DNA of 64,000 bases from Chloroflexota bacterium (GTDB lineage Bacteria > Chloroflexota > Anaerolineae > Anaerolineales > Anaerolineaceae), in NCBI GenBank assembly GCA_029548365.1, contig JAKPNN010000044.1, positions 1 to 64,000 on the forward strand. Direction: 5' to 3'. Numbering within the stretch: the first letter of the stretch is position 1; each line of letters starts with the position of its first letter. Under the pieces are notes generated by a model that was not told the DNA's origin, ran no database searches, and worked only from the letters and a program-made list of their open reading frames with translations. The translations under genes were made by a program, and so were the position numbers. Shown one piece after another: positions 48,009 to 52,962 of the stretch.

Positions 48009-48082
48009 GAAACAAATGTTCTTTATACGCTGCCCAAATTATTAACAGGATTTTGGCATAGGTGTTATCAAAAGGAGCGATT

Positions 48083-50524
48083 ATGGATTTAGGAACGGTA
48101 CGCTCAATAAATATTAATGAGGAAATGCAACAATCTTATCTCGATTATGCAATGAGTGTGATTGTTTCCAGGGCTTTGCCCGATGCCAGGGATGGTCTTA
48201 AACCCGTTCAGCGAAGAATTCTTTATGCCATGTTCGAAATGGGCTTGCGATCGGGTTCTGCGCACAAGAAATCTGCCAGGATCGTTGGAGAGGTTTTGGG
48301 AAAGTATCACCCGCACGGTGATATGGCAGTTTATGACGCCATGGCAAGGCTGGCTCAAGACTTTTCTCAGCGGTACAGGTTGGTAGAAGGACAGGGGAAT
48401 TTTGGGAGTATTGATGGCGATCCTCCGGCGGCTATGCGCTATACGGAAGCGCGATTAACTGAGATATCGATGGATATTCTCCAGCAATTAGGGATGGATA
48501 CGGTTGATTTTCTGGACAACTTTGACGGGACTTTACAGGAACCGGAGGTGTTGCCATCTTCTATCCCGAATTTGCTGGTCAACGGCGCCTCTGGCATCGC
48601 TGTGGCTATGGCAACCAATATCCCACCGCATAACCTGGGTGAGGTGGTGGATGCTCTGGTGATGATGTTTGAAAATTGGACAAAAATCGACGATATCGGC
48701 GTTGAAGATTTAATGAAATATATTAAAGGCCCTGATTTCCCCACCGGCGGGTTGATTATCACAGATGACCGCACGGAAACCCTGGCTCAGGCTTATGGGA
48801 GTGGAAAGGGTCGTGTGCGTATGCGCGCTCGGGTGCTTCTGGAAGAGATGAGCAGGGGGAGAAAACGGATCATCGTGACCGAATTGCCCTACATGACCAA
48901 TAAAGCGACGTTGATTGAGAAAATTGCTGAATTTGTGCGCGATGGTTCTTTAGAAGGAGTGAGCGATCTACGTGATGAATCCGACCGGCTGGGTATGCGG
49001 ATCGTGATTGAATTGAGTAAATCTGCTAACCCCGATGAAGTATTGAAGACACTGTATAAGCGGACCGCAATGCAAGGCACCTTTGGGATTAATATTTTAG
49101 CTTTGGTCAAAGGTCAGCCACAGAACCTGAACCTGAAACAGGCTCTAAAAGTCTTTGCAGATCATCGCCTGGAGGTTGTCAGGCGTCGCAGTGAATATGA
49201 ATTGAAGAAATCAGAGGAACGCATCCATATTCTAAATGCTTACCTGATTGCGCTGGAGAACCTGGATGAAGTGATTGACACCATTCGACGGTCACACCGG
49301 GTTGAAACTGCCAGAAACAACTTGATGCGCAAATTTAACCTTGATGAAATTCAGGCCCAGGCAATTCTGGATATGCCGCTCCGTCGATTGGCGGCTTTAG
49401 AGCGTAAGAAAATTGAGGATGAGCACAAGGAAGTCGAAAAGCGGATTAAGGAATTGAAAGCTTTGCTGCGCTCCCCCAAGATGATGCGCGAGGTTGTCAT
49501 CAATGAATTGAAGGAGGTGCGCACGCGTTATGCTGATGCACGCCGAACGCAGATTATCCAGATGCAAGAAGGTGAGACAGCCATTGACCGGCTGACGACC
49601 AGGGATATGATGCCAGAAAAGTGCGTGTGGGTCGCTGTGTCGAAGAGCAACAAAATTGCCCGTACCGATGGCGATAAAAGCTTCAGGCAGTGGGGGCTTG
49701 GTGCTCCGGGCATGGTTTTGCGCACAACGACGCATCACACGTTGTATCTTGTTACTGAGACCGGTGAGGCAGCAGCACTGGCGGTGCAATCGCTGCCCGT
49801 TGCTGATGATCCTGATTCAGGCATCTCGGTGACGGCGTTATCACCGCTGAGCAGCAAACACGAGCTGAAGTTGATCTTCTCTGCGCCGTCAGACCTTGAA
49901 GAAGGCGATGGGTACGTGGTCAGTGTGAGCAAGATGGGCATGGTTAAACGCTCTGCACTGAGCGAACTGCCAGGTCCTTCTGCGCATTTGTTCACCTTGG
50001 TAAAAATTAATAACGGTGACGCCCTTAAATTCCTATTATTTACCAAAGGCGACCAGACGATCTTCCTGGCGACCAAATTGGGAATGGGAATCCGCTTCAA
50101 CGAGGAGGAAGCGCGACCCATGGGACTGGTCGCCGCCGGGGTGAATGGCTTAAAACTTCGCAAAGGCGATGAGGTTGTTGGCGGGGGTAATGCCTCACTG
50201 CGCGGTGAAATTTTGTTGGTGACCAATCGTGGCAAAGCAAAACGGATGGAACCGTCTCAATTTCCACTCCAGGGGCGCTATGGGTTGGGGGTGATTGCCT
50301 GGAGGTTGCCAGACGATGAGCATGTTGCCGGGTCAATGATCGGAATACTCACATCTAACGGTGTGGCGCATTTTAAAGAGGCAGCCAGCCGCCTGCTGCG
50401 GGTGACGGATGCCCCCAGCCGCACCCGGACACAAAAAGGTGAGGTTGTAATCGATGTGAAAAAGGGTGATGAGATCCTGGAAATGACAGTTCCGCTGGAT
50501 GCGGTATCACTGGTTGGTAAATAA
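48083..50524 (+). CDS. gyrA: DNA gyrase subunit A homologue lacking a canonical GyrA box
   Basis: A type IIA topoisomerase breakage-reunion subunit of 813 residues. The catalytic Tyr120 lies in [10 protein letters not shown] and [20 protein letters not shown] covers the quinolone-determining region. The residue aligned with E. coli Ser83 is Met81, while Asp85 matches Asp87. The C-terminal beta-pinwheel (from about 510) is present, but where the GyrA box QRRGGKG should stand there is [11 protein letters not shown]; a weak relative QGRYGLG occurs in a late blade. It might therefore be a ParC/topoisomerase IV-like subunit. No gyrB or parE is nearby. ATG 48083 follows AAAGGAG; the start at 48062 is too early. 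Confidence 0.9.
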
Positions 50525-50549: not shown

Positions 50550-51647
50550 TTAAGGCTGCTGGATAATCGAATAATGAAATCGGATGGTGTTGTCGATCAC
50601 GCCCATCGTGTCGCGCCCTTCAGTCACCCCGCCATTTGGCTTTTGCACCTGCCAGCGAAAATTATGGATGTGGCGATCGACTTTTTCCTGAAGAAGGATG
50701 AATTTTTGTCCTGCATATTCTTCCATCAGGTTGGCAACCCACTCCCGGATTGCCGGCTTTCCGACGATGGCACTTCCAGAGCGAATATGAACCGCATTGC
50801 TGTTATAAAACTTAAGGACTTTATCCGGGTTGTTGCTATTCAAGGCTGCAAAGTACTGACTGATAAAATCATTGCCTGCTGTGGGGTTTTCATAACTATA
50901 ATTACGAACGAGATCCCAAAATTTTGGTAAATCACGCCGACAACCTTCCCAATACCAGAAATTGACAGCCGGAAGGTTTAATCTTTGGGCGACCTGCAGG
51001 AACTCGATCACATCGTTCTCTTGCGGTTTCCAGCCATGTTCTTTGAAAGTCGGACCGGTAGGGATAATCGGTCGGAAGGGCCTGATCTGGTTGTATTCAT
51101 TGATACAGCGTTGCAATTGTGCGCCACCTGTATTGATTGATTTCATCCAGTAAACCTGGGGCATGTTGTAATTACACCGTTCAAGAAAATTACTAAAGGG
51201 AAAATCAGGATGATATGAAGGGAAGCGATATGAGCTGAGTGCTATTGGCAGACTGCCTAAATTATTGCGCAGGATGTTCATATAACGGCTGGCGGCTGCA
51301 GCCTTTTTGGGTTGTTTGAACTCATGTTCTGCATTGACCACATAACCATCAACACCCAGCTCAATTGAGCGTTTGACCGCAATTTGTGCTTCTTGATCGG
51401 GGTGATTTCCATAGATGTACTGCCATCCCCAAACTGCGATATTGTGGGATTGGAGCTTTTTAATCACAGGGCGGACGTAATCAAAACCGCTTTCAAGGTC
51501 AACGTTGTAAGGGAAGGCGCCATCAGCTATTTTGATTAACACATGTGATAATTTGGCTTCGCGCGCCAGGCCGACGATGCGATCGGGGTTGCCCTTTTCG
51601 CAATTTTTCAGCATCCAAATATAATAACCTTTGCCTTTAAGCTCCAT
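50550..51647 (-). CDS. TIM-barrel-like protein fused to a SnoaL/NTF2-like domain
   Basis: I cannot name a characterised family. Residues 1-245 look like a TIM barrel of glycoside hydrolase type: KGYYIWMLKNCEKGNPDRIV, LSHVLIKIADGAFPYN, AVWGWQYIYGNHPDQEAQ, GVDGYVVNAEHEFK, IALSSYRFPSYHPDF and PAVNFWYWEGC, with acidic residues near strand ends. Residues 255-365 (FISQYFAALNSNNPDKVLKF, IVGKPAIREWVANLM) are a SnoaL/DUF4440-type cone domain that can bind or isomerise small molecules. No signal peptide is present, so a secreted hydrolase is unlikely. AGGAC lies upstream of the ATG. It is the last gene of a minus-strand run from lipM. Confidence 0.75.
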   Translation of the reverse strand: MELKGKGYYIWMLKNCEKGNPDRIVGLAREAKLSHVLIKIADGAFPYNVDLESGFDYVRPVIKKLQSHNIAVWGWQYIYGNHPDQEAQIAVKRSIELGVDGYVVNAEHEFKQPKKAAAASRYMNILRNNLGSLPIALSSYRFPSYHPDFPFSNFLERCNYNMPQVYWMKSINTGGAQLQRCINEYNQIRPFRPIIPTGPTFKEHGWKPQENDVIEFLQVAQRLNLPAVNFWYWEGCRRDLPKFWDLVRNYSYENPTAGNDFISQYFAALNSNNPDKVLKFYNSNAVHIRSGSAIVGKPAIREWVANLMEEYAGQKFILLQEKVDRHIHNFRWQVQKPNGGVTEGRDTMGVIDNTIRFHYSIIQQP

Positions 51648-51661
51648 GGTATTTGTCCTGA

Positions 51662-52234
51662 TTAATGATCTTGTGGCGTCCCTGCAAGGCCGAGTTCTTC
51701 AGCAATGCTGTTCATTGCTTCAATCACGTTGGCGACATGTTCCCAGAGATCGATTCCTAACTCTGCAGCGCCCAGCTCAATTTCTTCCCGATTAGCGCCC
51801 GCAGCAAAGGATTTGTCTTTCCACTTGTTTTTGACAGATTTTGGTTTGAGATCATATATGGCTTTTGAAGGCCTGACCAGGGCAACGGCAGTGATTAAGC
51901 CGGTCACCTCATCACAGGCGAACAGGGCTTTTTCCATATGCGTCTCTCGAGGGATACCCGTGTGAGTCGCATGACTGAGGACTGCCCTGATGATATCTTC
52001 TGGAACCTTATGCTCCCGCAAAATGGATTCACCAGCCAGGGGATGTTCTTCTAGGGTGGGATGAATTTCCCAATCAAAGTCGTGCATTAATGCGGTCACT
52101 GCCCATTTTTCCTCATCTTCGCCAAATTTGCGGGCATAAAAACGCATAGCAGCTTCAACAGCCAGCATATGTTTGATAAGGTTAGGGCTCTTGACGTATT
52201 GATGCAAAATGGTTAATGCTTGATCTCTGTTCAT
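51662..52234 (-). CDS. HD-domain hydrolase
   Basis: A 190-residue cytosolic HD protein. Metal ligands are His22 (NLIKHMLAVEAAM), His51-Asp52 (LMHDFDWE) and His64 (EEHPLAGES), then LSHATHTGIPRETHMEKALFACDEVTG. Such small HDIG proteins are putative phosphohydrolases; the substrate is unknown. The ATG at 52234 is chosen because the upstream in-frame stretch overlaps the SanA-like gene and lacks the family's start. It is 14 nt upstream of the TIM-barrel gene on the same strand. Confidence 0.85.
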   Translation of the reverse strand: MNRDQALTILHQYVKSPNLIKHMLAVEAAMRFYARKFGEDEEKWAVTALMHDFDWEIHPTLEEHPLAGESILREHKVPEDIIRAVLSHATHTGIPRETHMEKALFACDEVTGLITAVALVRPSKAIYDLKPKSVKNKWKDKSFAAGANREEIELGAAELGIDLWEHVANVIEAMNSIAEELGLAGTPQDH

Positions 52235-52305
52235 GGTTAGCTCTTTTATTGCAATATTGATGCCAGAATTGGTTATTATTAATGGTGATTGAAAAAAAGT
52301 CAGAT

Positions 52306-52962
52306 TCAGGGGAAGATGGGTTCGGGTTGACCGGGTAATGGTGTGGGCTGGGCAAAGAACACGTCCCAAATCGCCGCGCTGGAAGCAGGTATTTCCCGTG
52401 CCCACCAGAAGATATACCCGCGACGGTTGTAATTGGCATCGTCCGCGGTGACGCCATAAGCTTCGATATTCAAAGCGTTGCAAATGAATAAAGCTCGGGG
52501 TAAGTGAAAAGACTGGGTAACGATGATCAGTTGGTTGACGCCAAAAATATCTCGGGCGCGGTAACAGCTGTCATACGTCCTTATTCCCGCTGGGTCCAGA
52601 ACGATATCTTCACCAGGGACGCCCAATGACAGGGCGTACTCAAACATGGCTCCGGGTTCGTTGTAATATTGCGATATGTTGTCACCGCTCATTAAAAGCT
52701 TTTCAACTTTCCCAGAAAAATAAAGCTCCGCTGCTGTTTCAACCCGGTCGCGTAGAACAACGCCGGGCGATCCATCCCGGTTGAGACCGGCGCCCAGAAC
52801 CAGGGCGACAGGGGCTTCAGGGACATCCTCTGGTAAAAAGGTCTTTGGTCGGCTGTGAACCAGGATCCCCGTTCGGAGCAAGCCAACAAGGAAGAAGGCG
52901 CCGATGCAGATATACAGGATGCTGTGAAATACGATCAGAAGAAAGCGGCGGAGGTAATTCAT
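52306..52962 (-). CDS. SanA/YdcF-like DUF218 membrane protein
   Basis: A 218-residue protein with an N-terminal membrane anchor (about residues 8-30) and a DUF218 domain: VALVLGAGLNRDGSPGVVLRDRV, AAELYFSGKVEKLLMSGD, GVPGEDIVLDPAGIRTYDSCYRA and IVTQSFHLPRALFICN. DUF218 proteins such as SanA and ElyC act in envelope integrity. The start overlaps the stop of the PhnD-like gene by four bases. Confidence 0.9.
   Translation of the reverse strand: MNYLRRFLLIVFHSILYICIGAFFLVGLLRTGILVHSRPKTFLPEDVPEAPVALVLGAGLNRDGSPGVVLRDRVETAAELYFSGKVEKLLMSGDNISQYYNEPGAMFEYALSLGVPGEDIVLDPAGIRTYDSCYRARDIFGVNQLIIVTQSFHLPRALFICNALNIEAYGVTADDANYNRRGYIFWWAREIPASSAAIWDVFFAQPTPLPGQPEPIFP

Follow-up and report, generated by a model that had tools for sequence, protein, structure and literature searches.

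A barrel common to phage proteins is fused to an NTF2/SnoaL-like domain in a predicted cell-wall enzyme of Anaerolineales

The two-domain gene and its chromosomal neighbourhood

The DNA analysed here (the window) is a stretch of 64,000 nucleotides from a Chloroflexota bacterium of the Anaerolineaceae. It contains a gene for a protein composed of a barrel, a short linker and an NTF2/SnoaL-like domain (Table 1). An earlier reading made from the letters of the DNA (the sequence-only reading) had placed the ORF at exactly this position without stating its strand, which is minus. Its observation of a two-domain layout in one protein was confirmed, and its interpretation of the protein was partly supported. 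The whole-protein AlphaFold2 model, built with 41 sequences, showed a pLDDT of 91.6 and a pTM of 0.70; because of the latter value, the angle between the barrel and the NTF2 domain is uncertain. Residues 255-259 formed the only run of at least three residues with pLDDT below 50.

Table 1. Features of the locus, in window coordinates
Feature	Position	Strand	Basis or remark
gyrA, convergent downstream neighbour, conserved position	48062..50524	+	ORF call, family search, neighbour comparison
Whole ORF, 365 aa plus stop, ATG start	50550..51647	-	ORF call; orthologues
NTF2/SnoaL-like domain, residues 258-363	50559..50876	-	Pfam, Foldseek, domain modelled alone
Linker, residues 251-257	50877..50897	-	low model confidence at 255-259
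GH18-like (beta/alpha)8 barrel, residues 1-250	50898..51647	-	AlphaFold2 model, fold and profile comparison
End of strand beta4, residues 100-107, with E107 as proposed catalytic acid	51327..51350	-	alignments, model, profile
HD-domain gene, directly upstream, 14 bases before the start codon	51662..52306	-	true start uncertain
SanA/DUF218-like envelope gene, next upstream	52306..52962	-	under NCBIfam cut-off

The protein had been described as cytosolic, which holds only in the sense of leaderless, as judged from the codon room upstream of the start and from hydrophobic stretches in 43 orthologues. In 27 of these, fewer than 15 codons separate the in-frame stop from the start of the match. Among the other 16, 13 have extensions free of any hydrophobic stretch, and three (L019, L020 and L022) do or may have one.

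A scan of 84,980 species genomes, employing six peptide patterns, of which the barrel supplied four and the NTF2 tail two, returned 45 loci, all in Chloroflexota records, and the neighbourhood was compared among them. Neighbour genes were assigned by BLAST to proteins of the window or of L015 and L045, with Pfam confirmation of LytR-CpsA-Psr and LysM genes for the latter two loci only. In 28 of the 45 loci, the adjacent gene is a convergent gyrA, and in 31 gyrA lies no more than two genes away. Upstream, a same-strand HD-domain gene was found in 23 loci (directly in 22, and after one small ORF in L031), and a LytR-CpsA-Psr gene in 12 (directly in 11, and after one ORF in L014); in 7 of these 12, the LytR-CpsA-Psr gene is itself preceded by a gene for a LysM protein. 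Six loci (L012, L013, L019, L029, L032 and L041) showed neither gene, and at four (L002, L022, L043 and L044) the upstream gene could not be judged. A SanA/DUF218-like gene is present within three genes upstream in 18 of the 45 loci. In the window, the HD gene is followed upstream by SanA-like, PhnD-like and lipoate-ligase-like genes. At its longest, the HD frame (window 51662-52483, minus strand) begins with TTG and overlaps the SanA-like gene; its orthologues are mostly about 187-207 residues long, which suggests a later start. As a neighbour, the HD gene says little about walls. Rather than in a lysis or structural region of a phage, where an endolysin gene would be sought, the window gene lies between gyrA and the HD gene, as do many of its orthologues.

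The sequence-only reading knew of no characterised enzyme with exactly this TIM barrel-SnoaL/NTF2 layout, and none was found in the literature searched. A described enzyme of the same architecture was looked for, and none was among the literature matches listed; a search pairing Anaerolineae with SnoaL returned no match, and the combination of NTF2-like with glycoside hydrolase matched only a paper on clustering methods, as far as its accessible part goes (PMC12204192).

Fold, family and conserved residues of the two halves

The N-terminal half showed no match in Pfam, NCBIfam or PHROGs at E<=1. The GH18 family (PF00704) matched neither the protein at E<=1 nor any other sequence of the window's own genome, and a search of PDB sequences with the N-domain profile gave nothing useful (best E 0.56). 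Structure prediction and fold search, proposed earlier as a check, supported the glycoside-hydrolase-like TIM barrel of the sequence-only reading: AlphaFold2 produced a TIM barrel and, using VIA-align with residues 1-258, the best PDB rows were mostly GH18 chitinases, with Z up to 20.7. The individual comparisons were with the GH18 chitinases 3co4 (Z 20.7, rmsd 3.5, 241 aligned) and 2dsk (Z 20.6, rmsd 2.9, 244 aligned), Cwp19 5oq2 (Z 20.5, rmsd 3.2, 248 aligned), hevamine 1hvq (Z 18.9, rmsd 3.1, 232 aligned) and the spore cortex enzyme SleL 4s3j (Z 18.7, rmsd 3.6, 235 aligned). Another TIM barrel, the GH164 mannosidase 6t5o, scored nearly as high (Z 19.5), so the barrel cannot be assigned to a family from its fold only. 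No match of the N-terminal half to a known non-enzymatic family turned up.

We further compared profiles by hhalign. Against five GH18 proteins of related genomes, the barrel gave a probability of 55 (E 1.2e-4), and in this alignment DGYVVNAE fell on the GH18 pattern DG-x-D-x-D-x-E, with Glu on Glu. With 131 barrels in the profile, the probability rose to 79 (E 1.6e-5) and the beta4 motif was shifted by two columns; the register therefore rests on the 55-probability alignment together with the order of the strands. The GH25 (PF01183) set gave probabilities of 1.5 and 2.5, a weak likeness that does not exclude GH25, and the Rv2525c-like set gave 2.3 and 0.9. As nearest family, GH25 and Rv2525c-like (DUF1906) were rejected on these values, far weaker than those for GH18, with reference sets that were small (5 of 10 GH18 loci found, 7 of 10 GH25 loci and 2 of 3 Rv2525c-like loci, L153 being left out).

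The barrel resembles GH18 proteins (chitinases, hevamine, SleL) in its TIM-barrel fold, in its best fold scores and in a Glu at the end of beta4 after DG...(D/N)xE. It differs from them in having no Pfam GH18 match, in a Val for the first Asp of DxDxE and in the low identity (7-15%) of the structural alignments shown. The barrel is best read as a divergent GH18-like module and the protein as a phage-lysin-related one, probably an enzyme, with the NTF2 domain as an accessory.

In GH18 enzymes, the active-site motif on beta4 is DxxDxDxE. The window protein does not fully match this motif: the outer Asp and the Glu (E107) are kept, whereas the first Asp of DxDxE is replaced by Val and the second, residue 105, by Asn. 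With these two replacements, canonical GH18 chemistry cannot be taken for granted. Asn is the natural residue at a like position in GH85 enzymes, so its presence at 105 need not mean inactivity.

E107 is invariant in the 41-sequence alignment A1. Among 97 non-viral rows, some of them copies, Glu was found at position 107 in 91 and another residue in 3, and the column was not reached in the remaining 3. L046-L065 and L163-L169 had been left out of this count as copies; L052, L060, L061, L063 and L064 are not copies, and all the left-out rows keep Glu at 107. Paralogues that have lost E107 carry Ala (L067), Gln (L077) or Gly (L172) instead. At position 105, the 97 rows have 58 Asp and 32 Asn, and the 46 viral rows (see below) have 16 Asp and 30 Asn. 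In the viral loci, the search pattern dictated, wholly or in part, the letters at about 101-107, so that the viral Glu at 107 counts for nothing; K39, E86, R141, H146, Q164 and Y166 were free of this constraint. D/N105, E107, R141, H146, Q164 and Y166 are conserved polar residues at strand ends or in the loops that follow, and K39 lies inside beta2, forming a set on the side of the barrel that holds the active site; this polar set is kept in most viral rows. GH18 enzymes have a Tyr on beta6 and a Trp on beta8 near the acetamido group; Y166 and W233, conserved after the right strands in the alignment and the model, are candidates for these two residues.

The C-terminal half, read earlier as SnoaL/DUF4440-like, proved to be so. 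In Pfam, it matched NTF2 above the cut-off (E 2.1e-5, 25.4 bits; cut-off 21) and SnoaL_2 at 0.2 bits under it (E 8.4e-6, 26.8 bits; cut-off 27), with weak matches to DUF4440 and SnoaL_3. Foldseek found the SnoaL-like chain 7e85 (E 8.7e-9, TM 0.82 over target). Modelled alone, as had also been proposed, the domain reached a pLDDT of 90.3 and adopted the SnoaL/NTF2 fold, with Z 16.5 to 7e85 and 16.6 to the ketosteroid isomerase 6uad. By sequence too, the nearest solved chain was 7e85 (E 8.2e-14), followed by ketosteroid isomerases; these nearest solved relatives are chains of about 120 residues that have no barrel. In 40 C-domains, N270, Y281, G296, W332 and G344 are invariant, and D346 (37), T347 (38), G349 (38) and H358 (36) nearly so; position 357 is Tyr in 36 and Phe in 4, the window protein having Phe. 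Compared to the barrel, the C-terminal half is less conserved (66 vs 83% to the nearest orthologue).

Spread of the fusion and relatives of the barrel

Both halves match in 44 of the 45 loci found in named genome records, and in the remaining one (L044) the barrel alone does; L014 belongs to Candidatus Aquidulcis by its label. The nearest relatives of the 365-aa protein come from records named Chloroflexi bacterium, Anaerolineaceae bacterium and Brevefilum sp. Of 61 related genomes, with that of the window among them, 51 contain a match. Given these matches and those through both halves, the fusion is not an assembly accident; it is real and old. Across the phylum, 69 of 400 genomes showed some match. 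Barrel and NTF2 domain occurred in one frame in 11 of them, all in the window's own order, including L172 with its altered position 107; the rest were mostly NTF2-like stretches or distant barrels. In the full set of loci, in which copies are counted, an NTF2 domain is present in 107 of 171 barrel ORFs. In 4 of 10 comparisons, dN (0.107-0.285) was well below dS (1.4-4.2, saturated), and in the other 6 dS was undefined; for this reason, dN/dS ratios were left unused. One locus, L084 (G001:C54), has the gene in two adjacent copies, 62 and 52% identical to the window protein.

Employing the N-domain alignment, we found 46 loci in IMG/VR (L107-L152), with 26-54% identity in the matched stretch. 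A point missing from the sequence-only reading is that the barrel is a GH18-like module which phage proteins also have. None of the Pfam families recognises the barrel of these 46 phage-contig genes, and an annotated phage collection gave no match to it. The BFVD entry A0A6J5L5X0 shares 24% identity with the barrel (TM 0.87 over target). Around 34 of the 46 loci, 126 neighbouring genes were collected and the 106 on the plus strand scanned; terminase and portal matches were found, as were holin matches in at least three of the 106 genes, among the first 25 of 146 PHROG families listed. In prophage-like L076 (506-4555), a standalone barrel gene lies between genes for the terminase large subunit and the portal, an unusual place for a lysin. 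A further standalone copy, in L068, is near tail and helicase genes, and L069 is 94% identical to L068. Plasmids yielded two weak Rhizobium matches to the barrel.

The co-occurring domains, the remaining check proposed earlier, were those of wall-acting proteins in many of the relatives. SH3_3 was present in 22 of the 46 viral loci, and SH3_4, PG_binding_1 and CHAP in one each, PG_binding and CHAP being in a single contig; further viral loci have tails that look SH3-like by eye, and the NTF2 domain was found in none of the 46. A Calothrix plasmid protein joins the barrel to PG_binding_1 and CHAP, and L176 joins it to LysM. The phage proteins, L076, L068 and A0A6J5L5X0 share the barrel and nearly the same set of conserved residues with the window protein, but differ from it in carrying SH3, PG_binding with CHAP, or short or unclear tails where it has NTF2, and in their neighbourhood, which includes genes for a terminase, portal, holin, tail protein or helicase. 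A barrel common to phage proteins, many of them with SH3, points to peptidoglycan as the substrate.

Not every partner was of this wall-binding or wall-cutting kind, the exceptions being NAGPA (L067), a caspase domain (L078) and tails with no named domain. In L067 (1938-3848), a barrel without the catalytic Glu is joined to a SnoaL-like part and a NAGPA phosphodiester glycosidase domain (Pfam); by eye, L077 has a like layout, its C-terminal stretch resembling the NAGPA end of L067. L197 and L201, from two genomes that gave no barrel-NTF2 match, appear by eye to combine GH25 and SH3 repeats with a NAGPA-like end. L078 (480-2471) encodes a caspase domain (Peptidase_C14), a stretch that looks membrane-like by eye and then a barrel split over two frames. 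L199 and L200, frames of 730 residues, match GH25 weakly and have a GH18-like barrel nearer the C-terminus.

A quick tree was built from 134 barrels, comprising 81 NTF2 fusions, 39 viral and 14 other sequences. L043, L078, L079, L146, L147, L139, L077 and L067 were left out as partial or degenerate, as were the query copies L046 and L163 and identical rows. When the tree was rooted towards L106/L152, the NTF2 fusions fell into a few groups among the viral proteins. The standalone L068/L069 grouped with the fusions L042, L085 and L095 (98, a starred branch), which suggests exchange between host and phage. In this tree, backbone support is weak and the root unsure. Of its 131 inner branches 60 are open, long branches come together, the outgroup does not form one side of a branch, and the NTF2 label needs five changes, two of them forced by starred branches; for these reasons, the tree does not settle the direction of transfer. 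Capture of the barrel from phage is plausible.

Predicted function and competing explanations

Based on these results, we favour, by a slender balance, the explanation that the protein is a cell-wall glycan hydrolase whose GH18-like barrel cleaves peptidoglycan strands and whose NTF2 domain positions the enzyme on the polymer. Its predicted activity is probably to cut or trim the bacterium's own wall. The barrel would most likely cleave the beta-1,4 link of the GlcNAc-MurNAc strands, with E107 as general acid, in a substrate-assisted mechanism in which the N-acetyl group of the substrate would act as nucleophile, held by the Asp or Asn at position 105. At the C-terminus, the NTF2 domain stands where phage relatives carry SH3 (once a peptidoglycan-binding domain), and it would most likely hold or position the enzyme on the polymer by its pocket. 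This comes close to the earlier suggestion that the second domain binds the product; the ligand proposed here is the substrate polymer instead. The leaderless protein might reach the wall upon lysis or by a holin-like or non-classical route, or it might stay inside and work on fragments.

Judged by their gene content, the host organisms appear to make peptidoglycan: MurG matches were found in 15 of 16 genomes of the genus (13 over the cut-off), with a model that also matches all 14 control genomes, archaea included, and exceeds its cut-off in 9 of them, and a PBP transpeptidase was found in 16 of 16.

The accessible parts of two papers describe Pgp2, Csd6 and Bd1075 as LD-carboxypeptidases with a C-terminal NTF2 domain, which in Bd1075 targets the enzyme and in Pgp2 binds peptidoglycan in its pocket (PMC8938487, PMC8038945). 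As far as these parts go, they share with the window protein a catalytic head followed by a C-terminal NTF2 domain, whereas their head cuts peptide and that of the window protein is a TIM barrel of a glycan-cutting type; Bd1075 is predicted to carry a Sec signal and the place of action of Pgp2 is the periplasm, whereas the window protein shows no visible leader. The sequence-only reading did not mention such peptidoglycan-binding or targeting tails. On our best reading, the window NTF2 domain may work like the peptidoglycan-binding tails of Pgp2 and Bd1075. The likeness is one of analogy, since the C-domain is nearest to SnoaL and ketosteroid isomerases by both sequence and fold; no chain of Pgp2, Csd6 or Bd1075 was among the best 50 structural matches listed for it, a result that does not exclude kinship.

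Lacking a visible leader, the protein need not act on the wall. It could instead be a cytosolic enzyme that never meets the intact wall and cuts imported or recycled fragments that contain GlcNAc (muropeptides or other glycans), the NTF2 pocket holding part of the fragment. We consider this unlikely, although it would agree with the missing leader in most orthologues and with a fixed chromosomal gene that is not a lysis gene. Outside the fusions, the barrel family is found with SH3, PG_binding with CHAP, or LysM, wall-binding or wall-cutting modules that suit the polymer rather than fragments, and the barrel-NTF2 gene follows a LytR-CpsA-Psr gene in 12 of the 45 loci.

The NTF2 domain might only dimerise the enzyme and bind no glycan, as the sequence-only reading had also allowed. 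Many NTF2-like proteins are dimers; the invariant or nearly invariant N270, Y281, G296, W332, G344, D346, T347 and H358 may, however, mark a pocket, and we hold a purely dimerising role to be decidedly improbable. A little less probable still is a barrel that no longer hydrolyses glycans and serves in glycan binding or regulation instead. There are inactive lectins of the GH18 fold, the window protein has Val where the GH18 motif has an Asp, as well as Asn at 105, and the loss of E107 does occur in the family (L067, L077 and L172); against this, E107 and the polar set are kept in 91 of the 97 non-viral rows, as is the polar set in most of the viral ones. Very improbable is a bifunctional enzyme with a SnoaL half that is itself catalytic (isomerase, cyclase or hydratase-like), to which SnoaL-like and ketosteroid isomerase chains as nearest solved relatives would point, but its C-terminal half is the less conserved one. 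Family searches, run for a few of the neighbours, also identified none of them as a steroid or polyketide gene, which is a weak argument.

For the favoured cell-wall hydrolase, a fuller history can be offered tentatively, and we would not lean on it. An ancestor of the Anaerolineales may have taken up a phage-lysin module and exchanged its SH3 anchor for NTF2, giving a leaderless, domesticated housekeeping lysin, encoded beside gyrA and wall-assembly genes, for regulated wall remodelling or programmed lysis; the protein would then represent a new GH family with an altered GH18 site (Asp/Asn).

To our knowledge, the wall enzymes of these bacteria have been little studied. The proposed activity offers a testable function for a protein widely conserved in the order and for the 46 genes on phage contigs, whose barrel matches no Pfam family. 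It would extend the idea of NTF2 as the wall-binding part of a hydrolase from the peptide-cutting type (Pgp2, Bd1075) to the glycan-cutting type, and it raises the question of how a living cell uses a leaderless wall enzyme.
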